The position numbers and the translations under genes are program-made. The notes beneath the pieces were generated by a model. That model was not told the DNA's origin, did not search any database, and worked only from the letters and a program-made list of their open reading frames with translations. A DNA stretch of 63,557 bases, taken from positions 1 to 63,557 of the forward strand of contig JAFUKD010000011.1 in the NCBI GenBank assembly GCA_017467905.1. The letters are read 5' to 3'. Source of the stretch: Phascolarctobacterium sp. Lineage in GTDB: Bacteria; Bacillota; Negativicutes; Acidaminococcales; Acidaminococcaceae. Below, in pieces: positions 11,076 to 47,553 of this stretch (position 1 is its first letter; every line of letters begins with the position of its first letter).

Positions 11076-11471
11076 ATGGCAGTCACGAAAGGAGCTTCAA
11101 ATAAATTGCCTAAAAAGTTTAACATTCATTTTTACAAATCAGATTCCGGTCGAGAACCAGTAAAAGAATATTTAGAAATACTCAAGCAATCAAAAAATAC
11201 CCAAGACCAAAAACTACTGATGGAAATCAGTATGTATTTAACTTTACTTTCCGAAAGAGGTTCCAGCTTGGGAACTCCGTATGTAAAACATTTACGTAAC
11301 GACCTTTGGGAGTTACGTCCTAAAAGTGATAGAATTATATACTGTACCATAAAAAACAATAACATCTATCTACTTCACAACTTTAAAAAGACTTCCCAAA
11401 AAACTCCAATAAAAGAAATCAGAACAGCCTTATTACGCAATAAGAAATTAGTTAACAGTTCCAAGAGGTGA
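11076..11471 (+). CDS. higB: HigB/RelE-type toxin (phage Gp49-like family)
   Basis: 131 residues. The fold pattern of Gp49-like RelE-superfamily mRNA interferases is visible: GREPVKEYLEIL, then GTPYVKHLRNDLWELRPKSD and RIIYCTIKNNNIYLLHNFKKTSQKTP, where the basic residues around WELRP and FKK are the usual active surface. The toxin gene precedes the antitoxin, as in HigBA. An alternative start is the TTG near 11104, which has a much better AAAGGAG upstream and still precedes the first beta strand. Gene symbol by analogy only. Confidence 0.85.
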   Translation: MAVTKGASNKLPKKFNIHFYKSDSGREPVKEYLEILKQSKNTQDQKLLMEISMYLTLLSERGSSLGTPYVKHLRNDLWELRPKSDRIIYCTIKNNNIYLLHNFKKTSQKTPIKEIRTALLRNKKLVNSSKR

Positions 11472-11475
11472 TTTT

Positions 11476-11784
11476 ATGAAAAAAGAAACTTTCAACGCTA
11501 CTATCAATCCTCACCACGTTGGCTCCTCTTTTGAAGACTTTGTAAATGAAAACTTTTCTCCTGAAGAAATCAAACTCATAGAAGCCAAAGCCAAGATATT
11601 AGGCGAAATAATTGATGCACGCAAAGAACTATCATTAACGCAAAAACGAATTGAAGAACTTTCTGGAATAAAACAACCTATGATTGCTAAAATTGAAAAC
11701 GGCAACGCAAACCCTAGCTTGGACAGTCTTCTGCGAATTTTAATTTCTATGGGCAAAACACTGAAAGTTGTTCCAATCCAATAG
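11476..11784 (+). CDS. higA: XRE-family helix-turn-helix antitoxin (HigA-like)
   Basis: 102 residues. A C-terminal HTH_3 domain (LTQKRIEELSGIKQPMIAKI, then NPSLDSLLRILISMGKTL) follows an N-terminal segment likely to wrap the toxin. It starts four bases after the toxin stop, behind AGAGGTGA, so the pair is translationally coupled. Family knowledge says the antitoxin neutralises the toxin and represses the shared promoter at 11029. Confidence 0.9.
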   Translation: MKKETFNATINPHHVGSSFEDFVNENFSPEEIKLIEAKAKILGEIIDARKELSLTQKRIEELSGIKQPMIAKIENGNANPSLDSLLRILISMGKTLKVVPIQ

Positions 11785-11790
11785 CTTCTG

Positions 11791-11823
11791 CTCCCCACCC
11801 TCAACGGTTGGGGAGTTTTTATA
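11791..11823 (+). terminator. Intrinsic terminator of the toxin-antitoxin operon
   Basis: CTCCCCA (11791-11797) pairs with TGGGGAG (11809-11815), followed by TTTTTAT. It lies against the end of the converging polysaccharide cluster. Confidence 0.85.
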
Positions 11824-12568
11824 TTTTCAACTTTCCATCCAAAAAGGCTTGGTAGTCATCACAAATCTTTTGCACATCACTGCCAAAATTAATTTGTTTT
11901 CCCTTATGTAGCCACAAGATTTTATTGCACATGCTTCTTACCTGATGAAGCGAGTGCGAAACTAAAATAGTTGTTGCTCCACCGGTAATAATCTCTTTCA
12001 TCTTAGCTTCGCTCTTCTTACGAAAAGCACCATCACCAACAGAAAGCACTTCGTCCAAAATCAAAATGTCCGACTTAACTAAGGAAGCAATACTAAAGGC
12101 GAGGCGACTCTTCATGCCAGAAGAAAGTTGTTTGAAAGGTCTATCCTCAAACTCTTTCAGCTCTGCAAATTCTATAATCTGGTCATAAGTTTCATCCATA
12201 AACTTGCGAGTGTAACCAAGAAGTGCTCCGCGCAGGTAAGCGTTCTCCTTAACCGTAAGGTCTCCATCAAAACCACTGGCAAGCTCCAAAAGCGCAGCAA
12301 TCTTTCCAACGCGCTTAACTCTTCCCTCGGAAGGAACCATAATTCCGGAAATTGCCTTTAATAATGTAGACTTTCCCGCTCCATTTGTACCGATAATACC
12401 AAGCATATCACCTCGTTCTAATTCGAAGGTGATATTTTTATTTGCCCAAAACTCATTAACTTTATAATTGTTCTTCAACCTACGCACAACATATTCTTTT
12501 AAACCAATACTCTTAAAATCACCGGTAATATATTTTATAGATACGTTCTGCACTTTTAAAATTGACAT
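11819..12568 (-). CDS. Polysaccharide/teichoic-acid ABC exporter, ATPase subunit (TagH/KpsT/Wzt-like)
   Basis: 249 residues. Walker A is GTNGAGKSTLL, the signature is LSSGMKSRLAFS, and Walker B is ILILDEVLSVGD followed by the switch His in LVSHS. It powers export of the lipid-linked polymer across the inner membrane with the permease encoded 9 bases upstream. It lacks the C-terminal glycan-recognition domain of long Wzt proteins, so it resembles KpsT-type ATPases. It is the last gene of the cluster. Confidence 0.92.
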   Translation of the reverse strand: MSILKVQNVSIKYITGDFKSIGLKEYVVRRLKNNYKVNEFWANKNITFELERGDMLGIIGTNGAGKSTLLKAISGIMVPSEGRVKRVGKIAALLELASGFDGDLTVKENAYLRGALLGYTRKFMDETYDQIIEFAELKEFEDRPFKQLSSGMKSRLAFSIASLVKSDILILDEVLSVGDGAFRKKSEAKMKEIITGGATTILVSHSLHQVRSMCNKILWLHKGKQINFGSDVQKICDDYQAFLDGKLKI

Positions 12569-12577
12569 AGCTTCACC

Positions 12578-13351
12578 TTAGACATAGTACAAGAATTTAT
12601 AATTGTACTTTTTATAAACGTAACAGCCTGCACCAAACAAAACAATTGCATAACCCGCAAGCAAGGCATGTAACCACAGTTCAGGAATGGTATCGTTAAT
12701 GACGACACTTCTAAAATATGTAATACACACAAAGATTGGATTACAGTAAAATACATTCTGAATATGCTGCGGCAATCTATCAATGCTATAAAAAATTGCA
12801 CAGCCATACATCACAACCTGCGTGAACAAGCGATACAAATACTCAATGTCTCTAAAAAAGATAAATAGTGCTGAAAGAATTAAACCCATTCCAAGATTGA
12901 TAAAAATCAAGCACACTATTGGATAAACCAAAGTCAAAAACTTCCAAGTAAAAGTAATGCCATCTAACCAAACAAAAACAAAGTAAACTAAAAGTATAAT
13001 TCCAAAATTAATCAACGCGGAAACGTTCTTGGAGAAAAGGAACAAATACTTTGGTACATTTATTTTAGTAAATATCTTGGCATTACTCATCAGCGCGTTC
13101 ATCCCACCATTGGTAGATTCCGTATAGTAATTAAAAATTACTTGCCCACTAAATAGATACACTATGTAATGTTCGATACTTTTTCCAAAAAAATTACCAA
13201 AGATAGTAGCTAATACGCACATCATAAGCAAAGGGGACAATATGCTCCACAACATACCTAAAGCAGTTCTCTTATACTTTTGTTTAAAATCACGCTTAAC
13301 CAATTCTTCAAACATAAATTGGTACTGTCTTAATCTGTTCACGTCAAACAC
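12578..13351 (-). CDS. Polysaccharide/teichoic-acid ABC exporter, permease subunit (TagG/KpsM/Wzm-like)
   Basis: 257 residues with six predicted membrane helices of the ABC-2 type. An N-terminal amphipathic stretch (FEELVKRDFKQKYKRTALGMLW) is typical of Wzm/TagG permeases. Its ATG abuts the stop of the upstream O-antigen ligase gene. With the ATPase it forms the exporter of the polymer built by this cluster. Confidence 0.92.
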   Translation of the reverse strand: MFDVNRLRQYQFMFEELVKRDFKQKYKRTALGMLWSILSPLLMMCVLATIFGNFFGKSIEHYIVYLFSGQVIFNYYTESTNGGMNALMSNAKIFTKINVPKYLFLFSKNVSALINFGIILLVYFVFVWLDGITFTWKFLTLVYPIVCLIFINLGMGLILSALFIFFRDIEYLYRLFTQVVMYGCAIFYSIDRLPQHIQNVFYCNPIFVCITYFRSVVINDTIPELWLHALLAGYAIVLFGAGCYVYKKYNYKFLYYV

Positions 13352-14560
13352 CTATCGCAAATTTTTACTTGGATTATTTTTCAAAACTTTCAAAACTAAT
13401 AAAAAGCCAGTCATAAGCCAAATAGTTTTAGATGCAGAAGAACCATATATGGTTGTATCTATAAATCCAAAACCAGTAAAGCCCGCCCACAAAGCGAACA
13501 TCATCAATGAATAGGGATTTTTATTTTTTATCCAATCTATAAAATTAGAACACAGCACAAACACTGTAAAAGATAGATAACCTAAAAATCCTATGACGCC
13601 AGCTTCAGAAAATATTTGTAAGAAATTGTTGTGAGAATGAGGCAAATTAAACTTTACTCTCTTCAAATCATACTTCTGGTCATATTGCTTCTTAAACTGA
13701 CGCAACCCTACACCAGTCACAGGATGCTCCTTAATCATATTGATACTGCTTTCCCAAACGCTCAACCTACCAATATTAGATTTATTGGTAGTTACATTAG
13801 TAATGGAAGCTACACGATTTTTTAGCTTTGGAGTTGTCCAAAACACACCAAACAACACCACAAAAATCCCCAATGCTACCATTAAATATTTTTTGTTTTC
13901 AAGTAAATACTTATAGCCAACAAATGGAAGTACCAGCAGCAATGTAAGCCATAATCCCCTACTGCGTCCTGCAATTGCTCCCACTAATAAAACGGGTAAC
14001 AAACACATACAAACAGTGCGCAACTTAGCGCTAAAATTTTTATCCATAACCACAACGATTATCACTGGTATAACCATCGCCAAAATGCCTGCTAAATGCA
14101 TAGGGTGATTACCAAAACCACCAGGGCGATTAGTTATACCCATTACAGTTTGGTAAATAACAAGTAAACATTCCACTGCTTCCGCTGCAAAGAACCCTAC
14201 AATAACCTTTTCAATTACTTGGTAGTTTTTAGCAAACAGAGTTATTGCAAATAGAGGTACTAATCTATAGATCCAAATATCACAAAAATATTTGGCACTT
14301 TCCAACGGATTATAGGAGAATATAATGGAAGGAAACATTGTAAGAAGCATGATTCCTATCATTTTATAATAAGAAATATAGGCAGCATCTGTATCGCACA
14401 ACAAGCTACTACCACATTTACTTTTAAGATATGCCAAATACAAGAAACATAAAATTCCTATAACGAAAAAAACACTGCCTATAGCTGTAGAAATCCTATG
14501 AGTAATCAGGCTTAACCCAAAACTCCAAACCAAATATTTACTTAATTTTTCTTCCTTCAT
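13352..14560 (-). CDS. O-antigen ligase/polymerase family membrane protein (WaaL/Wzy_C)
   Basis: About 402 residues with some ten or more membrane helices. The conserved periplasmic loop is present: GVGLRQFKKQYDQKY, then LPHSHNNFLQIFSEAGVIG, containing the family His. Members join lipid-linked glycans to lipid A core or other acceptors, or polymerise repeats. Start set at the ATG that follows GGGTGA with proper spacing; a TTG at 14572 would add four residues. With an ABC exporter present, a ligase role is more likely than a Wzy role, but this is inference. Confidence 0.85.
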   Translation of the reverse strand: MKEEKLSKYLVWSFGLSLITHRISTAIGSVFFVIGILCFLYLAYLKSKCGSSLLCDTDAAYISYYKMIGIMLLTMFPSIIFSYNPLESAKYFCDIWIYRLVPLFAITLFAKNYQVIEKVIVGFFAAEAVECLLVIYQTVMGITNRPGGFGNHPMHLAGILAMVIPVIIVVVMDKNFSAKLRTVCMCLLPVLLVGAIAGRSRGLWLTLLLVLPFVGYKYLLENKKYLMVALGIFVVLFGVFWTTPKLKNRVASITNVTTNKSNIGRLSVWESSINMIKEHPVTGVGLRQFKKQYDQKYDLKRVKFNLPHSHNNFLQIFSEAGVIGFLGYLSFTVFVLCSNFIDWIKNKNPYSLMMFALWAGFTGFGFIDTTIYGSSASKTIWLMTGFLLVLKVLKNNPSKNLR

Positions 14561-14580
14561 CATTTCACCCAAACCCCAAC

Positions 14581-15549
14581 CTAAAAAAACTTGCTAAATT
14601 TAGAAAGCAACGCATATAACTTATGAACAGCTTTACAATTTTTAAAGCTCCATATTAGTACACAGTGCTTTCTTCTTAATTTACATCCTTCATACATCCC
14701 TATATTATCTTCTATAAAATTAGTAACTTCTTTAAACATAAAGTTATCATTTTCAAGACCAATAGCATAAAAGGCTGTTAACGCAGATAGTGCAGATTCT
14801 AATGCAAGCTTTCTACAATAATCTATACACACAATATTATTTTGCAAAGCAAATTCTAAACGCTCCTTATATCCTAAAAAATGTTCATACCTACTTTTAA
14901 CATTAAAGGATTGAGATATAAAATTACCCTTATGCTTCACATAAAAGTAAAAAGGCTTAGACATATACCCAACCCGTTTAGCATTAAAGATAAACTTATA
15001 AGTTGTCGCAACATCTTCGTATCTACGCTGCGCAGGAAAATCAATCCCCGTGATAACTTCCCTTTTGTAAATCTTGTTCCACACAGCATTATCCAAAGTA
15101 CCATTTAAAATTTCTACAATAGCATTACCCTGATGCCAAATAATATCCTTGTCATACCTTGGCTTAAACTTGTTCTTACCTTTTTTTACAACGTAACAAT
15201 CGGCACAAACAATATCAAGACCATTTGCCTCAAGAAAATTTACCATACCTTCACACATATCAGGTGCAATGTAATCATCTGCATCTACAAAACCAATTAA
15301 GGCTCCGGTTGCACACTGTAAACCATTATTCCTTGCTACACTTACGCCTTGGTTATGTTGATGAATAACCTTAACACGTTTATCTATAGAAACATACTCA
15401 TCACAAATAGCCCCACAGGAATCTGTGGAGCCATCGTTTACTAAAATAAGTTCAAAATCTTTATAACTCTGAGCCAAAATAGAATCTATGCATTTGTGAA
15501 TGAAATGTTCTGCATTATAAACAGGAACGATGATAGAAAGTTTGGGCAT
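14581..15549 (-). CDS. Family 2 glycosyltransferase
   Basis: 322 residues. The GT-A nucleotide-sugar domain is at the N terminus: SIIVPVYNAEHFIHKCIDSI, VNDGSTDSCGAICDEY and the metal-binding DADD motif (GFVDADDYIAPDM). The C-terminal third is helical and unassigned. The sugar donor and acceptor cannot be read from sequence. It lies in the capsule/O-antigen cluster, 11 bases after the CDP-glycerol transferase fusion gene. Confidence 0.9.
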   Translation of the reverse strand: MPKLSIIVPVYNAEHFIHKCIDSILAQSYKDFELILVNDGSTDSCGAICDEYVSIDKRVKVIHQHNQGVSVARNNGLQCATGALIGFVDADDYIAPDMCEGMVNFLEANGLDIVCADCYVVKKGKNKFKPRYDKDIIWHQGNAIVEILNGTLDNAVWNKIYKREVITGIDFPAQRRYEDVATTYKFIFNAKRVGYMSKPFYFYVKHKGNFISQSFNVKSRYEHFLGYKERLEFALQNNIVCIDYCRKLALESALSALTAFYAIGLENDNFMFKEVTNFIEDNIGMYEGCKLRRKHCVLIWSFKNCKAVHKLYALLSKFSKFF

Positions 15550-15560
15550 GAAGAGAACTC

Positions 15561-18227
15561 CTAAATTTTACATATATTTTCATATATGCGAAGACAATTA
15601 TTCTTATCATTGAAAGCAAAAAATTTATCTATTCTTTCCCTATACTTATCTTTAAGCTCACAACCACTTTCCATATACTCAATTATTCTATCTATTGTAG
15701 ATTTTAAATTATACTCAACTTCGCCAAAGCCATCTCTTTCGTAATCAAAATAACCTTGATCATAAGTATGTCCAGCAAAAAACTCTTCTTTATCAAATTG
15801 AGCATAAACAACAGGTTTTCTCAAATAGGCAAAATCAAAAGCGATTGAGGAATAATCAGTAACTACTAATCCACTTGTAGAAAAAATATCACGATATTTG
15901 GTAGATATGTTAAGAAACTCAACGTAATCGTTTCTATCAAACCAATCAATATAATTTATTACATTTGGATGTGGCATAAAACGAATTTTATACCCTAAGC
16001 TATCAGCTCTATTCAATAATCTTTCATCATTCAATAAATCATTATAAAAATTAAAGTATGCTGTAGTGTTAAAATCTTCATTATATTTCTTTAATCCGTC
16101 AATCGCAGAACTATCATTGTTGACAAAATAACTTCTCCACGTTGGCATTATTGTAATAATTCTTTTTGAATTATTAACCAATCTATCAAACCTAGGTAAG
16201 CCTGTTAGCTTCACAACACTATCATCATAATAGTACTCTCCATTTTTAATAGATTTATACTCCATTTCAGCACTAGTAACAATCATAGATAAATTTTTAT
16301 TATATCTATTTAGCCATCCAGATAAATCATCTTTCGTAATACCATGTTGCAAAAATATATGCTTCTTCCTCCACAAAATATCACGATAAAACTTTTCACT
16401 GCTACCAAAAGGATAATAGACAAAATTATCAGCAGCAGAAGATACGGTTTTATCAGCTAACAAATGAAAAAACTTATGTTTCAATGTAGAATAATCCAAT
16501 ACTTTTCCAATCTTTGCTACTATCGGATAATCAGCACTATCTTTACGTATAACAAAATATGAATTAACAGGAAGTTTATTTTCATTAATGTATTTGAAGA
16601 AAGCCTCACCATTATCATCAGCTTTATTAATACGGTCAGATATCAGCCACATTTCTTTTCTAAAAAATGGCTTTAAAATATGGTAAGCAATTCTGGAAAC
16701 TATAGCCTTCTTAGCTGCAGGTATGTTTAAAGTAGAATATTCATTCAACAACTTAAATTCTGCTGCTATTTTTTTCATAATAGAGCATTTTTCAATATTT
16801 ATGGCCCCATTCTTTAACGTTACAAATAAATTCCCTATCGCAACATAATTATTTTTAAATTCATCTACCACAGGAAAAAACTTTCCGCTCACTAAATTAT
16901 TTCTCTCATAAAGAACACCATCTATATATTCTAAAATTTTTAGTTGACTTACTTCGTGTATATCCGCTATCCCAACATATGTAATTAAGGTAGCAACGAG
17001 TTCATCAAAGCACACTTCTTCTAATACTCTACCAGTACTTTCACATAGAACATTGCCAGAAGGAGTTCCTAAAAACAACTTGTGATTTAAACCTTGTAAC
17101 CCATTAATATAAGAATAAGTAAATTCTATTTTTATTTTATCTTTTGCAAGCGTCAAAAATTCTAATCTTATAGCGTAATCCTTCAGCATAGCAACACGAG
17201 TATCATTCACATAAACGTACCTTTGATTATCCATATTGTTAACTATATACGCCTTTTTATTATATTTTTTGCTTAACAAAAAAGTTTTTAACTCCATTGA
17301 AGAATTACGCTGTTGCAAAATGATATCATCATCAAAATAATTTAGAAAACTAAATATCTTATCTTTAAACTCCTTTACTTCATCATCTTTCAATACTCTA
17401 CGAATATCCTTTAAACTGGTTTTAAATCTCCACTGCAAATCATACATTAATGTATATTGCACAAACTTAGGGATTTTTTCATAAGTTTCTTGCATCTTCT
17501 TTAAAGTATTTTCAGTAAAATACTTTAAAGAAGGCATGTACCATGCCTTATTTGATAAAGAATTTTGAAGTAAAGACTTTTCACCATTAGAACGTTTTCG
17601 GTAGTTGTATGACGTTTCGCAACAAACTCCTAATGCCTCTTTTTTCGCCAAAACTTTAATAACTTCATTAGCATCTTCCGCATACGATAACCTATAATCA
17701 AACTGCATATTTTTGGCATCTGAAAATTTAATAAAACTGGAAGCTATTTGTAATTGAATACAATCGTATTCTTGTTGTAAGTCAATAACTCTAGAACCTT
17801 TAATATATTTATAATTTAAAATATGTTCACCACTTCTACCATCAAAGAATTTAATTGGTATCGAAACCAAATCAACACTTTCATAATTATTTTCAAAAAA
17901 TTTATATACACTACTCAAAGTATTTTTAGATAGCTTATCATCACTATCTAAAAAATTCACATACTTACCTTGAATATGTTTTAATCCCTCATTACGAGCA
18001 GAAGATACACCACCATTTTCTTTATGTATAACTAAAATATTATTAGGATATTTAGCTGCATATGCATCACAAATTTTACCAGAAGAATCTTTTGAACCAT
18101 CATCAACTAAAATAAGCTGTACATTATCCTTAAAGCCAATATCTTGTTTTATGACGCTTTCAATAGCATCAGCTAAAAACTGCTCAACATTATAGACAGC
18201 AGTAACTATAGAAAATTTGAATTTCAT
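15561..18227 (-). CDS. Fusion of family 2 glycosyltransferase and CDP-glycerol/ribitol polyol-phosphotransferase
   Basis: 888 residues in two parts. Residues 1-230 form a GT2 domain (FSIVTAVYNVEQFLADAIES, VDDGSKDSSGKICD, FLDSDDKLS). About 530-888 is a TagB/TagF-type Glyphos_transf domain with LQHGITKDDLSGWLNR, GLPRFDRLV, and ending VVTDYSSIAFDFAYLRKPVVY. The middle region is beta-rich and unassigned. This predicts transfer of a polyol phosphate such as glycerol phosphate combined with sugar addition. It starts in a four-base ATGA overlap with the Stealth gene upstream. Confidence 0.88.
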   Translation of the reverse strand: MKFKFSIVTAVYNVEQFLADAIESVIKQDIGFKDNVQLILVDDGSKDSSGKICDAYAAKYPNNILVIHKENGGVSSARNEGLKHIQGKYVNFLDSDDKLSKNTLSSVYKFFENNYESVDLVSIPIKFFDGRSGEHILNYKYIKGSRVIDLQQEYDCIQLQIASSFIKFSDAKNMQFDYRLSYAEDANEVIKVLAKKEALGVCCETSYNYRKRSNGEKSLLQNSLSNKAWYMPSLKYFTENTLKKMQETYEKIPKFVQYTLMYDLQWRFKTSLKDIRRVLKDDEVKEFKDKIFSFLNYFDDDIILQQRNSSMELKTFLLSKKYNKKAYIVNNMDNQRYVYVNDTRVAMLKDYAIRLEFLTLAKDKIKIEFTYSYINGLQGLNHKLFLGTPSGNVLCESTGRVLEEVCFDELVATLITYVGIADIHEVSQLKILEYIDGVLYERNNLVSGKFFPVVDEFKNNYVAIGNLFVTLKNGAINIEKCSIMKKIAAEFKLLNEYSTLNIPAAKKAIVSRIAYHILKPFFRKEMWLISDRINKADDNGEAFFKYINENKLPVNSYFVIRKDSADYPIVAKIGKVLDYSTLKHKFFHLLADKTVSSAADNFVYYPFGSSEKFYRDILWRKKHIFLQHGITKDDLSGWLNRYNKNLSMIVTSAEMEYKSIKNGEYYYDDSVVKLTGLPRFDRLVNNSKRIITIMPTWRSYFVNNDSSAIDGLKKYNEDFNTTAYFNFYNDLLNDERLLNRADSLGYKIRFMPHPNVINYIDWFDRNDYVEFLNISTKYRDIFSTSGLVVTDYSSIAFDFAYLRKPVVYAQFDKEEFFAGHTYDQGYFDYERDGFGEVEYNLKSTIDRIIEYMESGCELKDKYRERIDKFFAFNDKNNCLRIYENICKI

Positions 18228-19216
18228 CTTTCAAACTCACTTTTACAAGGAAACCTTAATATAAATGCTTCCTTTAACCTTTCTTGTAATTTTTCTATCT
18301 CACCAGTATCTTCATTATCGTTAATGCACAACAACCTAAATTGTTTTTTCTTAACTATGTCTATACATTCATCTACATTGGTATTTTTAAGGTTTATTCT
18401 AATACCAAATCTATCACATCTATTTTTGCAAATACCTTTAATAATCTGTACATCTTTAATCAACCATTGATTAACATTATTTTTTTCTCTAATTTTAGAC
18501 CTACATGTATCATCTAACACTTTAGGAAAACAATTCCACACATATTCATAGGAGCTCTTCAAAAACGAACTGGATAAATGGTGGTTGTAGAATCCTGTGA
18601 AGAACGGGAAGGGCATCAAAAGAATATTCTTTATTACTTTCTTTATTCCAATAATCGGATTTAATAATTCTTTCCAGTTAGATTTTATAAATCTTCTCTT
18701 ATCAAACTTGTCATTAAGTAACGCAACATTATTAGCATCAATAAATGCGATAGATTTACTACAGAATTTTAAAGCATCTAATGCTATGGTATCTCTCGCC
18801 TTACCATTCTCAAAAAAATCTTCTGGCTTTACTTCACCTAATAAAAATATATCATCATTAAAATATACAAACTGTTCTTCTAATCCTTTTATTCTATGTA
18901 AATTAAGTTCTATCGTATGGGAGTTAAATGTTGGTAAATATTGCTTTGGTATAAAATCTTTATGATTAACAATATTTAATTTAGGATGTTCGGTATTCAA
19001 CCACTCTGGTAAGTGTCCGTAAGTGACAAAATGTATTCTGTTTACCCACGGTGCAAATTTTTCTACACCTCTAAACCAGTAGCGCAATAAATCCCAATCC
19101 CTATATCTGCAAGCATCAACGTTTGCTTTTATGCCTGTAAACTTTTCTTTGTCTGCCTGCCACTTTGGGTCAGAACCATCAACCCAGGCTATAACAAAAT
19201 CAATTTTGCTTTCCAT
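18224..19216 (-). CDS. Stealth family sugar-phosphate transferase (second copy)
   Basis: 330 residues. The Stealth conserved regions are clear: CR1 KIDFVIAWVDGSDPKW, CR2 RDWDLLRYWFRGVEKFAPWV and RIHFVTYGHLPEWL, then FVYFNDDIFL, and CR3/4 with FFTGFYNHHLSSSF. Stealth proteins transfer hexose-1-phosphate or similar groups to make phosphodiester-linked capsules. It is a paralogue of the gene immediately upstream, which suggests tandem duplication. Confidence 0.92.
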   Translation of the reverse strand: MESKIDFVIAWVDGSDPKWQADKEKFTGIKANVDACRYRDWDLLRYWFRGVEKFAPWVNRIHFVTYGHLPEWLNTEHPKLNIVNHKDFIPKQYLPTFNSHTIELNLHRIKGLEEQFVYFNDDIFLLGEVKPEDFFENGKARDTIALDALKFCSKSIAFIDANNVALLNDKFDKRRFIKSNWKELLNPIIGIKKVIKNILLMPFPFFTGFYNHHLSSSFLKSSYEYVWNCFPKVLDDTCRSKIREKNNVNQWLIKDVQIIKGICKNRCDRFGIRINLKNTNVDECIDIVKKKQFRLLCINDNEDTGEIEKLQERLKEAFILRFPCKSEFER

Positions 19217-19227
19217 ATAAATACACC

Positions 19228-20205
19228 CTATTTTTCAAACTTTGATTTATCAGGTAAAATCATTTCGAAAACACATTGTAATTCATTTTTATAAACTTCA
19301 AAGTCAATATTTTCATCTATATCATTACAACAAACTATTTTCCCTTCTTGCCTTGATATAAACCTAACTAAATTTCTATCTCCAATAACAAAATACTTTC
19401 CTAACACCTTATGAGGGTAAAAACTACAACTAGCTATTTGCCAATACCTAACTAACCAAGGACTAACATCATTTCGTGACCGAAACTTATTACTACAAGT
19501 CTTGTGTAATAACTCATTTTCTGCCAACCATACTTTCTTAAATGTCTCTTTATTGAATGAAACGCATAGATGGTGATCGAAAAAGCCAGTATGTTTACGA
19601 AAAGGACATAATAAAATAGTACGTATTATATTTTTTCCATAACACCAATTGAAAGCATGCCACCAACCATCATTCACATAGCTTTCTTTATTAAAATATT
19701 TGTTTATTATTTGTAAATTATTTAGCACTACATTGGATACTATTTTATCACCAGGAGATATACATCCTAAAACCCCAATATCACATGGTAATCCATCAAC
19801 AAAAAAATCTTCTGGCTTTACTTTATTAATCAAAAACACGTCATCATTGAAATACACAAATCGCTCTTCTAATTCTTCTATTCTATGTAAATTAAGTTCT
19901 ATAGTATGAGAATTAAATGTTGGTAAATATTTTTCTGGTATATAATCTTTATGATTAACGATATGCAATTTGGGATGATTTATATTCAACCATTCTGGCA
20001 AATGACCACAAGTTACAAAATGTATTCTATTTACCCAAGGTGCAAACTTCTCTACGCCTCTAAACCAATACCTAAGCAAATCCCATTCTCTAAATCTAAT
20101 GTTACGACTATCGCCTAAATTACTATTGTATGAATCCCTAAGATTTCTCCACTCTTCATCATTTCCATCCACCCATGTAATAACAAAATCAATTTTTTCG
20201 TTCAT
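19228..20205 (-). CDS. Stealth family sugar-phosphate transferase (first copy)
   Basis: About 325 residues from the ATG at 20205, chosen because AAAAGG has good spacing and the start then matches the neighbouring paralogue (NEKIDFVITWVDGND against ESKIDFVIAWVDGSD). The same CR1-CR4 blocks are present (WDLLRYWFRGVEKFAPWVNR, YFNDDVFL, HTGFFDHHLCVSF). The N-terminal halves of the two copies are far more alike than the C-terminal parts, as expected if acceptor specificity has diverged. Confidence 0.92.
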   Translation of the reverse strand: MNEKIDFVITWVDGNDEEWRNLRDSYNSNLGDSRNIRFREWDLLRYWFRGVEKFAPWVNRIHFVTCGHLPEWLNINHPKLHIVNHKDYIPEKYLPTFNSHTIELNLHRIEELEERFVYFNDDVFLINKVKPEDFFVDGLPCDIGVLGCISPGDKIVSNVVLNNLQIINKYFNKESYVNDGWWHAFNWCYGKNIIRTILLCPFRKHTGFFDHHLCVSFNKETFKKVWLAENELLHKTCSNKFRSRNDVSPWLVRYWQIASCSFYPHKVLGKYFVIGDRNLVRFISRQEGKIVCCNDIDENIDFEVYKNELQCVFEMILPDKSKFEK

Positions 20206-20250
20206 CATATGCCTTTTCATTTTCCTATTTTCTTTCAGAACCTCAAAACA

Positions 20251-20643
20251 CTACTTTTTGTTCAAATCACTCTTAATCTGAGTAGTACTTATCTCTGGTG
20301 TTCTCTCCAAATAAACTACCTCACAATAATCTTTCAGGAAATCAAACTCACCTTCCCAGTCATCACCCATAACGAAAGTATCAACTCTAAATTCCTTAAC
20401 ATCAGAAATTTTCTGTTCCCAACATTCCTCTGGAATAACCAAATCAACATACCTAATTGATTCTAAAAGCTGTTTCCTTATTTCATAGGAAAAATAACAC
20501 TTTTTCTGCTTACTATTCCAATTAAACTCATCCGTTGATAAAGCGACAATAAGATAATCACCTTGTGCTTTTGCACGTTTTAAAAGATTTATATGACCAT
20601 AATGTAATAAATCGAAAGTTCCATAAGTTATTACTTTTTTCAT
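20251..20643 (-). CDS. tagD: Glycerol-3-phosphate cytidylyltransferase
   Basis: 130 residues, the usual TagD size. The cytidylyltransferase motif [18 protein letters not shown] and the [11 protein letters not shown] motif are intact. It makes CDP-glycerol from glycerol 3-phosphate and CTP, the donor for the two polyol-phosphotransferase domains in this cluster. Its presence is the best evidence that the polymer contains glycerol phosphate. Confidence 0.95.
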
Positions 20644-20710: not shown

Positions 20711-21820
20711 TTATATTATATCCAAATCGTCTAAAATTCTTTTAGTAGCCAATCCATCATTACAATTTATAAATTTACCTCTATATTTATCAATATCCAT
20801 ATCACTTAGATTGTTATATCTACAAATTACATTAAACAAATCTTTTGTTTCATATACCATAGGAAAATTAAACTCTGACCTATAATCAATGTACATACCA
20901 CGAGCTTCAGTATATTCTTCATAATCTGGCACATAAAATATCACTTTCTTCTTTAACAAAAGAAAATCATAAAAAACAGAAGAGTAATCAGTAATCAAAA
21001 TATCTGTTACTGGATACAATTCTTCTGTTTTTATTTTGCAGTTATCCACTTTGTACTTTTCTTGCAAGTGAGGGTGAAGCTTTATGACGAGAAAGTAATC
21101 ATCATTTAACCGTTCCTTTAGGTTCAACATCTCCTCTATTCCGTCTATATTTGCATTACTACCATTGCCTCTAAAGGAAGGTGCCCATAAAATTACTGTT
21201 TTACCTTTCGCAGCAGGATATTCTTCGTAAAATTGTTTCTCACATCGCTCTACATATCCCTCTTCAAAAAAGAAATCACTTCTGCTATGTCCCAAAGCTT
21301 TAACTTTTTCTTTGTCCATTCTCCAATTGTTAGATACAACATTCACCATAATCTCAGAACTAACACTAACCAAGTCAAAGTTTTTAGTTGGATTTATCCA
21401 TCGTAAATTTCCTAAATCATCAGGTGCATCATATCCAAATTTCTTTTGCAAACCGCTTGCGTGCCACAGTTGCACAACTTTCGTTTCCTCTTTTTTATTG
21501 CAAGAAGATACTGGCAGATAATAATCACAAATAAAAACATATTTAGCCCGCGCGTAGTACTTCATAAATAAAATACTCTTAGCTAATTTCTGAAAAACAT
21601 TTAACTTATCATAGTTATGACACCAAACTAAGGTATTGTAATTTCTTGCTTGCAATTCTTTATGCATTGCTTGTAGACTAAATGGAATCCCATCAGATTT
21701 TGAATCTGCCAATATTACAAAGTTGTTATCTACTTTTTGATAACTAAAAATCCGATACACAAAAGGCAACAGCAAATATTGTAAAAAAGCCTTTTGTAAT
21801 TCTCTAACTAACAATTTCAT
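20711..21820 (-). CDS. CDP-glycerol glycerophosphotransferase family protein (TagB/TarF-like)
   Basis: 369 residues from the ATG at 21820, which overlaps the upstream stop as ATGA. An upstream frame extension of 19 codons into the previous gene is less likely. Typical motifs are VVQLWHASGLQKKFGYDAP, LGHSRSDFFFE, ILWAPSFRGNG, IKLHPHLQ and ILITDYSSVFYDFLLLKKKV. The family transfers glycerol phosphate from CDP-glycerol onto a lipid-linked acceptor. It sits between a GT2 gene and tagD. Confidence 0.93.
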   Translation of the reverse strand: MKLLVRELQKAFLQYLLLPFVYRIFSYQKVDNNFVILADSKSDGIPFSLQAMHKELQARNYNTLVWCHNYDKLNVFQKLAKSILFMKYYARAKYVFICDYYLPVSSCNKKEETKVVQLWHASGLQKKFGYDAPDDLGNLRWINPTKNFDLVSVSSEIMVNVVSNNWRMDKEKVKALGHSRSDFFFEEGYVERCEKQFYEEYPAAKGKTVILWAPSFRGNGSNANIDGIEEMLNLKERLNDDYFLVIKLHPHLQEKYKVDNCKIKTEELYPVTDILITDYSSVFYDFLLLKKKVIFYVPDYEEYTEARGMYIDYRSEFNFPMVYETKDLFNVICRYNNLSDMDIDKYRGKFINCNDGLATKRILDDLDII

Positions 21821-22575
21821 CCGTACTTCTTCAATCCATTCACTATATATTGGAAGAAAAAATAAAAGCTTTCCCACATATTCAGATGTAGGAATTCTCT
21901 ATAAATCTTCCACCTGTGCTTTGCAGCACCAATTTTATTAAAAGATCTGCCTTGAGTATGTACTCGGTACTTCACTAAGTACTCATCAATACCGCTAAAG
22001 ATCAATCCTCTTTGTAAACATTCCAGTAGAAAAATATAATCTTCGTGAAACCAGTGAGCATTGAACCTAATATTTCCAATGGCTCTACTTCTAAAGAAAG
22101 TCGTTGAAAATATCACTGAGTTTTCTCGAAGCAAGTCATCCATTGAAATTTTTTCTTTTACATTTCTATATTTGATTAGCTTTCCGCTACCATCAATCAT
22201 TTCATAAGCAGTAAAGACCATATCAACATCATTTTCTTTGATATGGTTTAACTGCTTTTCTATTTTATTTTCTGCCCAAACGTCGTCACTATCACAAAAT
22301 GCAATGTACTCACCCTTTGCGATAGCCAATGCTCTATTTCTCGACTCCGCACATCCTAAGTTAAATGAGTTATTTATAACCACTACTCTTTTATCTTTTT
22401 GAGCAATGTTTTCAACAAGTTTCAGTGTATTATCTGTTGGGCAATCATTAACGATAATCAGTTCTATATTTTTATGCGATTGATTCAGAACAGAAGTAAT
22501 ACCTTCTTCTATATATCTTTCTGCGTTGTATGCAGGCATTATAACTGAAACTAACGCATTTACTTTAAGCATCAT
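21817..22575 (-). CDS. Family 2 glycosyltransferase
   Basis: 252 residues. It has a GT-A domain with VSVIMPAYNAERYIEEGI, IIVNDCPTDNTL, ESRNRALAIAKGEYIAFCDS followed by DDVW (the metal motif DSDD), and a helical C terminus. It could add an early sugar after the WbaP step. The start follows AAGGGG. A 235-base spacer with a long hairpin separates it from wbaP. Confidence 0.92.
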   Translation of the reverse strand: MMLKVNALVSVIMPAYNAERYIEEGITSVLNQSHKNIELIIVNDCPTDNTLKLVENIAQKDKRVVVINNSFNLGCAESRNRALAIAKGEYIAFCDSDDVWAENKIEKQLNHIKENDVDMVFTAYEMIDGSGKLIKYRNVKEKISMDDLLRENSVIFSTTFFRSRAIGNIRFNAHWFHEDYIFLLECLQRGLIFSGIDEYLVKYRVHTQGRSFNKIGAAKHRWKIYREFLHLNMWESFYFFFQYIVNGLKKYG

Positions 22576-22658: not shown

Positions 22659-22748
22659 AAAAAATATCGCGAAGCTCCACATCCTGAGCTGTATTTTCTA
22701 AAAGCTTCTAAAAACTACGAAGCGAATATGTGGACAGCGATATTTTTA
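22659..22748 (-). terminator. Long interrupted hairpin between wbaP and the next glycosyltransferase gene
   Basis: Blocks AAAATATCGC (22661-22670) and TCCACAT (22676-22682) pair with GCGATATTTT (22737-22746) and ATGTGGA (22728-22734). On the minus strand the structure is followed by a T run. It may be a leaky terminator that lowers expression of the genes after wbaP, or a mobile repeat. The rest of 22576-22810 shows nothing else. Confidence 0.5.
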
Positions 22749-22810
22749 TACTAAAAGGAGCGTTGCGTTTGAGTGTTGCAGGAAAGCAATAAATTTTGTG
22801 ATTAAGTTAA

Positions 22811-24256
22811 TCAGTATGCACCTTTTCTTCTAATAACAACATCAAACGTTCTCCACAACAGCATCACGTCTATCCAAACACTCCAGTTATGCACATACCA
22901 AGTGTCAAGGGCAACGCGTTCTGCGTAATCTATATCGCTACGCCCGCTTACCTGCCACATACCTGTAATGCCAGGCTTTACCATCAGGTAATCTGCAGCG
23001 TGCTCGCCGTAACGTTCCAGTTCTTCTTGGATTATTGGTCTTGGTCCAACAAGGCTCATCTCTCCGCGCAGTACGTTAAATATTTGCGGAAGTTCATCCA
23101 AGCTGGTCTTACGCAGGAAGGCTCCGGATTTTGTTATTCTGGGGTCGTTCTTTAATTTAAAGTCACGTTCCCATTCCGCACGTGCTTCTGCATCGTTTGC
23201 CAATAGCTCTTCTAATTTTTCCTTAGCATCCACGCACATACTGCGGAACTTGTAGCAGGGGAAGGGCTTGCCATCCTTACCAATGCGGGTATGCTTGAAG
23301 ATAACTGGCCCCGGAGAATCCTTGTAAATCCAAATGGCAATAATTGCCAAAATTGGAGAGATTGCTATGGTTCCAACAATGGTCAGCATGTAATCAAAGA
23401 TTGTCTTCAAAAATCTATTGAATGGTCTGGCGAGGTTGTTCTTAACCCGCAGTAACATGAGCTTTTCGTTAAAAAGACTTTCAACTTCTATTCCACCCAT
23501 GGGAATACCAATCAGATTGGGAATTATGGCAAGATTCTTCACCAAGGGCTGTACCCTGTAAACAAGGCTGACAAGTTTTTCCTGCTCCATTCCCGGTGCG
23601 GCAATGAAAACATTTTTTACACCTGTTTCCTTTATTACCCGTTCCGCATCTTGGAAAGTGCCGAGCACTCTATATTTTCCAAGGGCTTTGCTTTTTACAG
23701 GCTTATCTTCCAAAAAGCCAAGGATGTGATAGCCCAAGCCTGCGTCCTTCGTGATGCCTTGTACTAAAATTTCTGCAGTCTTGCCTGCGCCAATGATTAG
23801 TACCGGAATTTGCAAAACATTGTATTTTTCCAAGACCTTCTTAAAAAAATAGCGGAAGCTTGTTATATAAAGGAAGCTAAAGCTCCACAGCAAGCCTACG
23901 AAAAGACGAGAGGTTGACGCGGCAAGCCTGCCAACGTAAAGCTCAATAATAATGGCAATGGTGGCATACATTGTCGCTTGAAAAATCTTTTGGATGATTT
24001 TGTAGAAAGGGCTTCTGCGATTGTAAGGGTGCTCTACGTTTAGGAAGAGGATGTAAACCGCAGGGAACACCACCCAAAAGTTAAGCCAGGAGATGTGCAG
24101 CCTGCCATTGTTTTCTACAATGAAGTTGCGCAAGCTAAAAGCAGTTTGCTCTGCGCAGACCACAGCGAGGTAATCTATAACAAGAAGCAGCAGCGGCAAA
24201 AGAAAGGTTATATTTTTATTTGTTCCTGCCATTTGGCTACGATTGTTTTCCAGCAC
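22811..24256 (-). CDS. wbaP: Undecaprenyl-phosphate sugar phosphotransferase (WbaP-type initiating enzyme)
   Basis: 481 residues. Five N-terminal membrane helices and a CoA-binding-like domain (PVLIIGAGKTAEIL) lead into the catalytic bacterial sugar transferase domain: FKHTRIGKDGKPFPCYKFRS, KSGAFLRKTSLDELPQIFNV, MSLVGPRP and KPGITGMWQVSGRSD. It places a sugar 1-phosphate on undecaprenyl phosphate, starting the polymer. A GTG start with AGGGG upstream is used. It is the first gene of the cluster and sits behind the poly-G promoter. Confidence 0.95.
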   Translation of the reverse strand: MLENNRSQMAGTNKNITFLLPLLLLVIDYLAVVCAEQTAFSLRNFIVENNGRLHISWLNFWVVFPAVYILFLNVEHPYNRRSPFYKIIQKIFQATMYATIAIIIELYVGRLAASTSRLFVGLLWSFSFLYITSFRYFFKKVLEKYNVLQIPVLIIGAGKTAEILVQGITKDAGLGYHILGFLEDKPVKSKALGKYRVLGTFQDAERVIKETGVKNVFIAAPGMEQEKLVSLVYRVQPLVKNLAIIPNLIGIPMGGIEVESLFNEKLMLLRVKNNLARPFNRFLKTIFDYMLTIVGTIAISPILAIIAIWIYKDSPGPVIFKHTRIGKDGKPFPCYKFRSMCVDAKEKLEELLANDAEARAEWERDFKLKNDPRITKSGAFLRKTSLDELPQIFNVLRGEMSLVGPRPIIQEELERYGEHAADYLMVKPGITGMWQVSGRSDIDYAERVALDTWYVHNWSVWIDVMLLWRTFDVVIRRKGAY

Positions 24257-24343
24257 GCCCTACCCCTGTTTTTTAAGCAAGCTCTTTGCTTTGTTTATGT
24301 CATTCTTTTTATTCATTTATATTTTCTTTATACTTACTAAACA

Positions 24344-24372
24344 TTATAGCACTGTTGTCCCCCCCCGTAAAG
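24344..24372 (-). promoter_or_regulatory. Promoter of the polysaccharide cluster with a G8 tract in the spacer
   Basis: On the minus strand -10 is TATAAT, preceded by TGC (extended -10), and TTTACG lies 17 bases upstream as a -35. The spacer begins with a homopolymeric run of G (the C8 at 24359-24366 on the plus strand). Gain or loss of a G would change the -35/-10 spacing. Confidence 0.65.
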
Positions 24373-24520
24373 ACACTTCGGTTTAGAAACTGCCCTAATT
24401 TTACCGTCTGCCCGAAGTGACTTACTATTGTTCCCAATGGTAGCCAGTTCGTTTTAAGGCGAGCCTTTAATTTTACAGCTCTCTTTGCCACAGCTGAACG
24501 CCAGTAAAGTGGGACAACAG
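24352..24520. mobile_element. Possible MITE or invertible segment with 10-bp inverted ends
   Basis: CTGTTGTCCC (24352-24361) and GGGACAACAG (24511-24520) form inverted ends of a 169-bp segment upstream of wbaP. An internal inverted pair CACTTCGG/CCGAAGTG lies at about 24374-24381 and 24412-24419. One end supplies the -35 and the poly-G spacer of the cluster promoter. No target-site duplication is evident, so the mobile-element reading is uncertain. Confidence 0.35.
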
Positions 24521-24564: not shown

Positions 24565-24599
24565 AAAAAATAACACCACTCTAAAATTTAGAATGGTGT
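24565..24599 (-). terminator. Intrinsic terminator after nhaC
   Basis: A 13-bp stem (ACACCATTCTAAA with its near-complement ending TGGTGT, one mismatch) is followed on the minus strand by TATTTTTTTATG. Confidence 0.88.
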
Positions 24600-24645
24600 C
24601 ATATAAAAGATAGTCTATTAAATTTTACAAGAGTTTACTTTTTGC

Positions 24646-26127
24646 TTACGCCCTTTTCAAAAGCACAGCCATGCAGCAGCCCAACGCACCCAAGCCTGCA
24701 AAAAGTCCTGTCATACCGCTAGCAGTAACACCTGCCACAATGTAAGCAAAAAGGCAGCAAGCAGATACAACCAAAACGTAGGGAATTTGTGTAGAAACAT
24801 GGTCCAAGTGATTACATTGCGCACCTGCAGAAGCCAAGATGGTGGTATCAGAAATGGGAGAAACGTGGTCGCCGCCAACAGCGCCAGCCAAAACTGCTGC
24901 GATGGTTACAATGGTCAGCTCGTTGTAGTCGCCAATTACTGCCAGCACAATGGGAATCAAGATGCCGAAGGTACCCCAGGAGGTGCCGGTTGCAAACGCC
25001 AAGCCAATGGAAACCAAGAAGAACATTGCGGGCAGGAACATGCCCAAGGTTGCATTGTTATCTACAACTTGGCTAACGTAACCGCCAATGTTAAGATATT
25101 CTTCGCCGCACACACCGGACAGGGACCAAGCCAAGCACAGAATGAAGAGTGCCGGAGTCATTGCCTTGAAGCCAATGCTGAAACATTCGCAAAAATTTTC
25201 GAAGCGCAGTACGCCACGGGGTATATAAAGGAAGAAAGTGAACATCAACGCCATAAAGGAACCAATTACCAAGCCCTTAGAGGAGTTGCAATCTGCGAAG
25301 GCTTGTGCCACACCTGCACCTTCAAGGATGCCGCCAGTGTAGAGCATGCCAAATACGCAGCCTGCAATCAGCACTGCCAAAGGCAGAACCAAGTCAAGGA
25401 TTTTACCGTTGCCGGTGATGGTTTCAGCTTCTTCATCCTTGTACTCGTCAGGAGTGAGAGCGCCGGTGCCATACTTTTCTTCAAAGGCTTTCATGGTTGA
25501 AAAGTCCTTGCCACTCCAGATAAGGAACATTAAGAACGCCAAGGTAAACCAAGCGTAGTAGTTGTACGGAATGGTTTGCAGGAACAGCTGGAAGCCGTCA
25601 ATCTTACTGTCTTCCGGCAGGGAAGAGCTTACTGCTGCTGCCCAGCTGGAAACAGGAGCGATAATGCAGATGGGCGCTGCGGTAGCGTCAATGATGTACG
25701 CCAGCTTAGCGCGGGTAACTTTAAATTTATCAGTTACAGGGCGCATTACCGTACCAACGGTTAAGCAGTTAAAGTAATCGTCGATGAAGATGAGCATTCC
25801 CAAAAAGGAAGTTACAAAAAGAGCACTTGCCTTACTTCTAATGCTGCGCACTGCCCATTCGCCATAAGCCTTGGATGCGCCGGATTTAGAGATTGCTGCA
25901 ACCAAAATGCCCAGCAATACTAAGAATACTAAAATATTTACGTTGCCGCCAACCTTTACTTCCATAATGGTAAACATAGTGTCAATGGCAGAAACAAGAT
26001 TGAAATCGCAGAACATTAACGCACCGGTCAGGATGCCTACGATTAAGGAGATGTAAACCTCCTTGGTGTACAATGCCAGGGCAATTGTAATAAGCGGCGG
26101 TACTAAAGACCAAATTGTTTGTGACAT
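24646..26127 (-). CDS. nhaC: Na+/H+ antiporter, NhaC family
   Basis: 493 residues with about 11-12 membrane helices. Typical NhaC-family segments include FIDDYFNCLTVGTVMRPVTD, ATAAPICIIAPVSSWAA, TGTSWGTFGILIPI and AVLAGAVGGDHVSPISDTTI. It probably exchanges cytoplasmic Na+ (or a metabolite, as in the related malate/lactate exchangers) for protons. It is a single-gene unit with an RBS (AGGGGA), an upstream -10 TATAAT and a strong terminator. Confidence 0.9.
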   Translation of the reverse strand: MSQTIWSLVPPLITIALALYTKEVYISLIVGILTGALMFCDFNLVSAIDTMFTIMEVKVGGNVNILVFLVLLGILVAAISKSGASKAYGEWAVRSIRSKASALFVTSFLGMLIFIDDYFNCLTVGTVMRPVTDKFKVTRAKLAYIIDATAAPICIIAPVSSWAAAVSSSLPEDSKIDGFQLFLQTIPYNYYAWFTLAFLMFLIWSGKDFSTMKAFEEKYGTGALTPDEYKDEEAETITGNGKILDLVLPLAVLIAGCVFGMLYTGGILEGAGVAQAFADCNSSKGLVIGSFMALMFTFFLYIPRGVLRFENFCECFSIGFKAMTPALFILCLAWSLSGVCGEEYLNIGGYVSQVVDNNATLGMFLPAMFFLVSIGLAFATGTSWGTFGILIPIVLAVIGDYNELTIVTIAAVLAGAVGGDHVSPISDTTILASAGAQCNHLDHVSTQIPYVLVVSACCLFAYIVAGVTASGMTGLFAGLGALGCCMAVLLKRA

Positions 26128-45504: not shown

Positions 45505-47553
45505 TTAGAATTTATATTCCGCACCGATGATAAAGTGACGAGATTGAGCAGGGCTGTTGTAATGTCCATCAACAGCACCAACATAGTCAGTATAAGCTTC
45601 GTTAAAGAGATTGTATACTTTGGCATAAAGGCTGAAATCATCACTTGCTTTATAGGTAACAGCCATATCAACAGTAACAAAGTTATTATCTAAATATCTT
45701 ACTTGCGGCAAATAGCTACCCATGAAGTACCAAGCACTCCCCATTTCACAACCACTAGTATAGCGTAACCATACATTACTATCCCATTTACCATCCTTGT
45801 AGTTTACACCAATACGATAAACATTAGGACTATAGTTTCTATCTCTTACATAACCACTATTTTTATAATCTTCAACCCGAAGATAAGTGTAACTTGCGTT
45901 TACAGAAACATTATCATTTAATTCATGGCTAAGGCTTACCTCCATACCACGTTTTTTCTGCTTAGCCATATTCTCAACATGTCTATTAGCCCAGCTACTA
46001 TCCCACACCCAATTAATAGCATCTTCTAAATCACTTTCAAAATAATTAATAATAAAGTCAGTTTTATCATTAAATTTGGTGGCATATCCTAAAGTCCATG
46101 TATCACCAGTTTCAGGTTTCAAATCAGGATTCCCCTTCATTTTTCCTCCACCAGCCATAGTACCTTCATAGAACAAATCATCAGTAGTAGGTGCGCGGAA
46201 CACTTCACTCCAGTTAAAGTAAACGTGGCTATCTTCATCAAGTTTTTTATTCAAGCCTGCACTCATGGTTGTATCATCGCCAGCATGGCTATGGTCATCA
46301 TAACGAACACCAGCATTCAATGTCCAGGTAGGTGCAAACTCCCAAGTATCGCTAACGAATATTGCAGTGTTATCAATTCCTTCGTCATAGGTATTGTCAC
46401 CCTTAGCAGTTACATCAGATTCTCTCCAAGAAGCCCCAACAACTAATTTATTGGTATCAGAAGTCGTAAAAGCTTGTTGAATATCCAAACCATTTACTTT
46501 TTCTTTCATATATCCAATTGACGGCGTATCACTTCTTTTATTAAATTCGCCTTTATCATTATAATATGACACAAGATTTATTTTAGATACATTATTATAT
46601 TCTAATTCATTATGGTAAATCTGCACATAACCTTGGTCTCTACCATTAATTACCCAATCATATTTAGCATATATATTTTGAGTTTCTTTGTCTTGTTTAT
46701 ATACACCATAGTCTATTTGCTCCTCGCCAGCACCATCAGGATACCACGGAAGAGTAGGACTCATACCTTCATACTTACTGTAATCAAAGCCTACAGAAAG
46801 ATTGGTTGTATCAGTAATCTCTTGAGTCAGATTAAGAGAGAACTTTTTATTTTCAAAGTCAGTAGGTCCTTCCCATCTCTTAGTGGTATCAGTTTTATGG
46901 TCTCTATATTTGTAATAGTCTTGTTCATATTGACTTGCAGAAACAGTTACGCCTGTCTTGCCTTGTTTAGCAGAATACATAATCTTTTTATCTTCTGCCC
47001 CAAAGGAACCAAAGCCAAGAGAGATTTTACCATTGGTCATATCAGCCTTTTTGGTAATAATGTTGATTACACCACCAACAGCTTCAGAACCATAGAGTGC
47101 ACCGCCTGCACCCTTCAAAACTTCCACACGCTCAATCATACTGGTATCAGGCAACATATTCATATCAATACTACCTCTACCACCATCGTTAGAGCCCATA
47201 TCAGTGGTTACTCTACGACCATCAACCAAAACGAGTACGCGGTCATCACCATTGAGTTTAATCTTTTTTTCTTTGGTACCTATGCCATTATCTAAAACGG
47301 TTACACCACTTACATCTTTAAGCACTTCACCCATGTCTTGGTATTTACGTTGCTCAATTTGCTCCGCACCAACAACAGAAATATTTGCTGGAGTATCTAC
47401 TAAACGAGTTTCGGTTCTCGCTGCAGTTACGACAAACTCGTCCATCTCAAAGGTTTGCAGTTCATTCGCATGTACCGGTGTTCCCCCCCATTGTACAGCG
47501 CCACAAATAAGAGCTGCCATCAGCACGCCCTTGCTCATTTTATTTTGCATCAT
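45505..47553 (-). CDS. TonB-dependent outer-membrane receptor
   Basis: 682 residues. Signal peptide (GVLMAALICGAVQWGGTPVHA), TonB box EFVVTAARTETR, plug domain (IEQRKYQDMGEVLKDVSGVT, VLVDGRRVTTD, VEVLKGAGGALYGSEAVGGV), then a 22-strand barrel ending in YNSPAQSRHFIIGAEYKF with the usual terminal Phe. The substrate is not evident; CirA/BtuB-like siderophore, heme or corrinoid uptake are options. No cobalamin riboswitch or obvious Fur box is seen upstream. It lies downstream of exbB-exbD-tonB but has its own promoter. Confidence 0.95.
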   Translation of the reverse strand: MMQNKMSKGVLMAALICGAVQWGGTPVHANELQTFEMDEFVVTAARTETRLVDTPANISVVGAEQIEQRKYQDMGEVLKDVSGVTVLDNGIGTKEKKIKLNGDDRVLVLVDGRRVTTDMGSNDGGRGSIDMNMLPDTSMIERVEVLKGAGGALYGSEAVGGVINIITKKADMTNGKISLGFGSFGAEDKKIMYSAKQGKTGVTVSASQYEQDYYKYRDHKTDTTKRWEGPTDFENKKFSLNLTQEITDTTNLSVGFDYSKYEGMSPTLPWYPDGAGEEQIDYGVYKQDKETQNIYAKYDWVINGRDQGYVQIYHNELEYNNVSKINLVSYYNDKGEFNKRSDTPSIGYMKEKVNGLDIQQAFTTSDTNKLVVGASWRESDVTAKGDNTYDEGIDNTAIFVSDTWEFAPTWTLNAGVRYDDHSHAGDDTTMSAGLNKKLDEDSHVYFNWSEVFRAPTTDDLFYEGTMAGGGKMKGNPDLKPETGDTWTLGYATKFNDKTDFIINYFESDLEDAINWVWDSSWANRHVENMAKQKKRGMEVSLSHELNDNVSVNASYTYLRVEDYKNSGYVRDRNYSPNVYRIGVNYKDGKWDSNVWLRYTSGCEMGSAWYFMGSYLPQVRYLDNNFVTVDMAVTYKASDDFSLYAKVYNLFNEAYTDYVGAVDGHYNSPAQSRHFIIGAEYKF

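Follow-up and report, generated by a model that had tools for sequence, protein, structure and literature searches.

Does a run of eight guanines between the −35 and −10 elements of a promoter make a surface-polysaccharide cluster of Phascolarctobacterium switchable? The best-known examples of surface genes switched by slippage come from pathogens, among them Neisseria and Treponema, and a random switch of this kind would let a gut bacterium vary its coat. The question is raised by a stretch of 63,557 nucleotides from Phascolarctobacterium sp., called the window below, in which a first-pass annotation had predicted a phase-variable promoter in front of a 12-kb polysaccharide cluster.

The promoter and the cluster behind it

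On the minus strand, the window reads TTTACG-GGGGGGG-ACAACAGTGC-TATAAT, and this reading (24343-24371) confirmed the annotated G8 in the 17-bp spacer of a predicted promoter, between TTTACG and an extended −10. The −35-like hexamer TTTACG is located at 24366-24371 (minus strand), directly after a GTC conserved in the promoter class described below (GTCTTTAC), and its last base is the first G of the homopolymer at 24359-24366 (minus strand), the predicted slippage tract. The extended −10, TGC-TATAAT (TGCTATAAT; 24343-24351, minus strand), consists of the hexamer at 24348-24343 and a TG extension. The distance from the −10 to the GTG start of the first gene, encoding a WbaP-type protein, is about 86-87 bp, and an 18-codon open frame read from the sequence (ATG...TAG; 24260-24316, minus strand), a putative leader, stops 3 bp before this GTG. 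A known structured RNA at the promoter was rejected, since an Rfam scan around it returned no family at gathering score. Further upstream, a terminator-like hairpin with a T-run (24570-24602, minus strand) closes the preceding antiporter gene (24646-26127), and the polysaccharide cluster therefore needs its own promoter.

The cluster consists of 11 genes on the minus strand, from 24256 down to 11819, with small gaps; only the first gene is followed by a larger one, of 235 bp. This first gene (22811-24256, GTG start, 481 aa) encodes a WbaP-type undecaprenyl-phosphate sugar transferase (Pfam Bac_transf, 1.7e-67; NCBIfam TIGR03022, 478 bits with a cut-off of 403). Beyond the 235-bp gap, the genes encode a family 2 glycosyltransferase (GT2; 21817-22575), a CDP-glycerol:polyglycerophosphate glycerophosphotransferase-like protein (20711-21877; Pfam PF04464, 1.2e-55), a TagD-like glycerol-3-phosphate cytidylyltransferase (20251-20643; TIGR01518, 203.5 bits with a cut-off of 165.4), two Stealth-family sugar-phosphate transferases (19228-20220 and 18224-19216; Stealth_CR2, 2.8e-45 and 1.5e-45), a fusion of GT2 and glycerophosphotransferase (15561-18227), another GT2 (14581-15549), an O-antigen-ligase-like Wzy_C protein (13352-14572), and an ABC-2 export permease (12578-13351) and an ABC ATPase (11819-12568), both Wzm/Wzt or TagGH-like, the latter at the cluster end. 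With 11 co-directional genes and mostly small gaps, it is plausible that the promoter would toggle the whole 12-kb cluster, as first proposed; this is unproven because the 235-bp gap holds a weak promoter-like match. A short repeat, AAAATTTATTGCTTTC, is found at 22740-22800 (minus strand) in the window and also at L132 and L091, that is, in leaders or gaps of several poly-G loci, and YTGCAACA-like bases come next in two of the copies. Convergent to the cluster end, a gene pair of Gp49-like (RelE/HigB type) and HTH proteins at 11076-11784 (plus strand) is probably a toxin-antitoxin module.

A promoter class at surface loci

A lone G8 is unremarkable in the window, where one is seen against 0.71 expected under a dinucleotide model, and scaling this shuffle figure gives about 20 G8 matches expected genome-wide. 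In the window's own genome (1.84 Mb, Phascolarctobacterium-like, Acidaminococcaceae), about 20 distinct sites match the pattern G6+...GTGNTATAAT while the reversed control pattern has no match, so that the placement of the G8 is not due to chance. Moreover, 10 of the 11 tracts of at least eight G in this genome reside in spacers of the promoter class and one (C28:15497) resides outside it. Tracts of at least seven G number 32, and these counts, like the others made genome-wide, derive from pattern searches: 21 are in promoter spacers, including those with the variant −10s CATAAT (C1:134694), TACAAT (C5:68241), and TAAACT (C12:110090), six in signal-peptide codons of TonB receptors, one at the N-terminus of a lipid A biosynthesis acyltransferase (G7, C13:19801; Pfam 4.1e-48), and four elsewhere. 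The G8 spacer of the first-pass annotation is thus real, but it is not a single site, as about 20 more promoters have the same build and the window itself harbors a second tract at 47483-47489.

This second tract (minus strand), a contingency-like G7, falls within the codons (QWGGT) for the signal peptide of a TonB-dependent receptor (gene 45505-47553). In five paralogues of the genome (L081, L089, L090, L096, and L097), the QWGGT/HWGGT codons at this place likewise contain G7. Of the six receptor genes, all but L097 (C19:43896) are in frame at G7, and the out-of-frame L097 could be a pseudogene or a copy in the “off” state. The G7 receptor genes are candidate translational contingency genes.

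The targets of the promoter class in the genome are four glycosyltransferase/polysaccharide clusters, a sulfatase-domain membrane protein, an MBOAT acyltransferase, OmpM/SLH porins, and a FadL-type protein behind a small HTH gene. At four loci (L122, L128, L133, and L134), a small Xre-type HTH gene comes first after the poly-G promoter and is followed by a large secreted autotransporter-like protein, an order that recurs across several species. Among 80 downstream proteins from Acidaminococcaceae, autotransporter beta-domain (15), SLH (14), GT2 (6), YadA (4), and MBOAT (3) proteins are found besides others, and downstream genes of the family also include those for FadL, CpsB, and Wzz; two matches at DNA polymerase I in genus g7 are exceptions to the surface targets. 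A crude signal-peptide test was positive for 52 of 77 proteins behind poly-G promoters in contrast to 3 of 24 behind the ordinary extended −10 promoters that these genomes also have (p 2.7e-6), which mostly precede housekeeping genes such as those for a class-V aminotransferase, a tRNA synthetase, and lexA. Other identities of the class were rejected: a class of rRNA/tRNA promoters does not fit, with no rRNA and only one nearby tRNA at the sites, a lineage-wide consensus would require a G tract that is missing from the ordinary extended −10 promoters in these genomes, and the core motif has no match in 2.9 million viral contigs, which speaks against a viral or mobile origin.

In a sample of one consensus assembly per genome and one genome per species, the pattern matches in 21 of 59 genomes of the family Acidaminococcaceae and in 56 of 380 genomes of the class, with two matches only for the reversed controls. 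The matches, for example in Phascolarctobacterium sp. and uncultured Acidaminococcaceae, are concentrated in a few genera (g1, g2, g3, g7, and g17) and are sparse in one other large family. The relative S34M_St_78 has at least five paralogous polysaccharide loci (L109, L112, L113, L114, and L116) with a poly-G promoter at each; other polysaccharide loci in relatives have fixed promoters.

Spacer length, tract polymorphism, and competing readings

When each site is anchored at CTT[GT], an anchor picked by motif, the spacer is 16 bp in 87 and 17 bp in 16 of 110 sites. A 16-bp spacer is also modal in the ordinary TTGAC...TGNTATAAT promoters of the family (98 of the 150 listed). The tract itself ranges from 7 to 10 G and is exactly G7 in 79 of 115 sites, which were selected mainly by a tract of at least seven G, so that short tracts are under-sampled and few of G5 or G6 are listed; because of this selection and the narrow range, strongly “off” lengths are rarely seen. 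Shorter flanks go with longer tracts (rho −0.68), and the variance is below that of all 10,000 permutations. The length of the G run thus offsets that of the flanks around 16 bp, and the tract therefore sets the functional distance; such compensation implies selection.

This bears on the alternative that the sites are ordinary constitutive promoters and the poly-G was spread by duplication of a promoter cassette alone, without switching. Several copies do have long upstream homology in common: a DNA search with the upstream region returned repeated copies in the window's own genome and the sister species, and homology with most paralogous promoters stops exactly at the −10 hexamer. Duplication alone is nevertheless very improbable in view of the compensation just described, of the near absence of tracts of at least eight G elsewhere in the genome, and of the fact that different genera retain G7 or more in a spacer whose other bases have been replaced.

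Furthermore, tract length varies between closely related copies. In groups of near-identical promoters, the G count differs in 6 of 11 cases compared with none of 12 for A/T runs of six or more (p 0.0046), a polymorphism that is partly between paralogues and is to be read with G runs being intrinsically more mutable than shorter A/T runs. In a comparison with its five closest homologues, the window G8 is longer by one G than the G7 of three paralogues and of a sister-species copy. The direct sister-species orthologue of the window site has A+G6 and the −10 TATTAT, and judging from these bases this promoter may be locked.

There are features that spacer length does not account for. An element of about 115 bp upstream of the window promoter (24372-24487, minus strand; alignment), which contains direct repeats GTAAAATTA, recurs at three more glycosyltransferase operons of this genome and in the sister species. 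Just upstream of the −35, an inverted repeat, AAGACACTTCGG / CCGAAGTGACTT, with a 30-nt loop (24370-24423) is a candidate operator or upstream hairpin, and its arms co-vary in the sister species from CACTTCG/CGAAGTG to CGCTTCG/CGAAGCG. Different inverted repeats (CAAGCAAAAG.., TGTGAAGTAGT..) are found in other promoter subclasses. In addition, GT precedes CTT[GT] in about 80% of the poly-G sites of Acidaminococcaceae and about 90% of those in a second family, and is absent from the ordinary TTGAC control promoters. Both the upstream element and the GTCTT kept in front of the tract indicate a constraint beyond spacer length. These features, together with the strong mode at G7, would fit a G tract that belongs to a site (GTCTT-N-G7) recognized by a regulator dedicated to envelope genes, with its length kept for binding and not as a mutation counter. 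We consider this unlikely, as the tract follows flank length over 7-10 G and differs between near-identical copies, the bases after it are not conserved between genera, and the G7 of the TonB receptor genes is in the coding sequence, which does not call for a promoter site. Even less likely is that both hold at once, with slippage deciding which loci of a regulated promoter class are able to respond; this reading draws on the data for both readings and on the Xre-type HTH genes that come first in several transcription units, although no regulator is tied to the motif.

A perfect 10-bp inverted repeat, CTGTTGTCCC / GGGACAACAG, flanks the window promoter (24352-24361 and 24511-24520), so that switching by inversion of the promoter might also be considered, and invertons are common in Negativicutes-like genomes (PMC11892184). 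The repeat is short at 10 bp and is absent from the homologous promoters at C14 and C37, however, and an inverton was rejected as having hardly any likelihood.

Probably, the G8 promoter is best explained by phase variation through its spacer, as in porA or tp0126. The site would be a sigma-70-type extended −10 promoter in which a slippage-prone G tract sets the distance between −35 and −10. Gain or loss of a G in replication would bring the spacer to about 15 to 18 bp, and transcription of the surface-polysaccharide cluster would be switched or graded accordingly (on/off or high/low). G7 with a spacer of 16 bp, the class norm, is probably the most active form, and the assembled G8 with its 17 bp would be one step off. 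This explanation builds on what is observed in the architecture, the genome- and family-wide class, the 16-bp set point, the length polymorphism between copies, and the surface targets; from these we infer that tracts slip often in a population, that promoter activity is not the same with G7 as with G8, and that all genes of the cluster respond together. The phase variation predicted at the outset has thus gained indirect support from a class found almost entirely in front of surface genes, from G tracts that are polymorphic while A/T runs are constant, and from the fixed spacer. A wider proposal is more tentative: the class GTCTT[G/T]-N-G7+-...-TGNTATAAT might form a contingency regulon in Acidaminococcaceae and some other Negativicutes, in which about 20 surface loci and the TonB receptors slip independently, around 16 bp at the promoters, and a shared regulator reads the same promoters.

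Comparison with known systems

The mechanism is already known. In the papers searched, a collection short of many subscription titles, neither a genome-wide use in diderm Firmicutes nor poly-G phase variation in Negativicutes was found described. If such slippage does run about 20 surface loci in each genome of Phascolarctobacterium and its relatives, which are common gut bacteria, a single clone could hold very many surface states; this would be relevant to phage resistance, IgA targeting, and the persistence of strains.

In porA (and fetA) of Neisseria meningitidis, a poly-G between −35 and −10 sets the spacer and thereby the transcription of an outer-membrane protein (PMC2791445, PMC7864442). 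The window promoter has its poly-G at the same place in the spacer, and it shares three marks of porA-type phase variation: a homopolymer between the predicted −35 and −10, as also at about 20 sites of its own genome, a surface locus as its target, and a tract whose length differs between copies or relatives. In contrast to porA and fetA, here 20-odd promoters have one architecture with a 16-bp set point and an extended −10, the host is a diderm Firmicutes, and polysaccharide and autotransporter loci are targets besides porins. Several outer-membrane genes with poly-G are found in the one genome of Treponema pallidum, where the poly-G in the spacer of tp0126 (OmpW) tunes transcription through the −35/−10 spacing, with an optimal distance (PMC7864442). 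The best spacing of tp0126 is 17 bp, compared with the set point of 16 bp here, and the tract of Treponema tprL is outside the spacer, unlike that of the window promoter.

Translational contingency genes with poly-G or poly-C, such as the iron-uptake receptors of Neisseria, have their likeness in the TonB receptor genes described above, with the same G7 in signal-peptide codons and one copy out of frame, although switching here is at the level of a candidate. In Bacteroides, multiple capsular polysaccharide loci have invertible promoters. There, as in S34M_St_78 with its at least five poly-G loci, a gut commensal has several surface-polysaccharide loci with independent switches, which are thrown by DNA inversion in Bacteroides and would be thrown by homopolymer slippage here.
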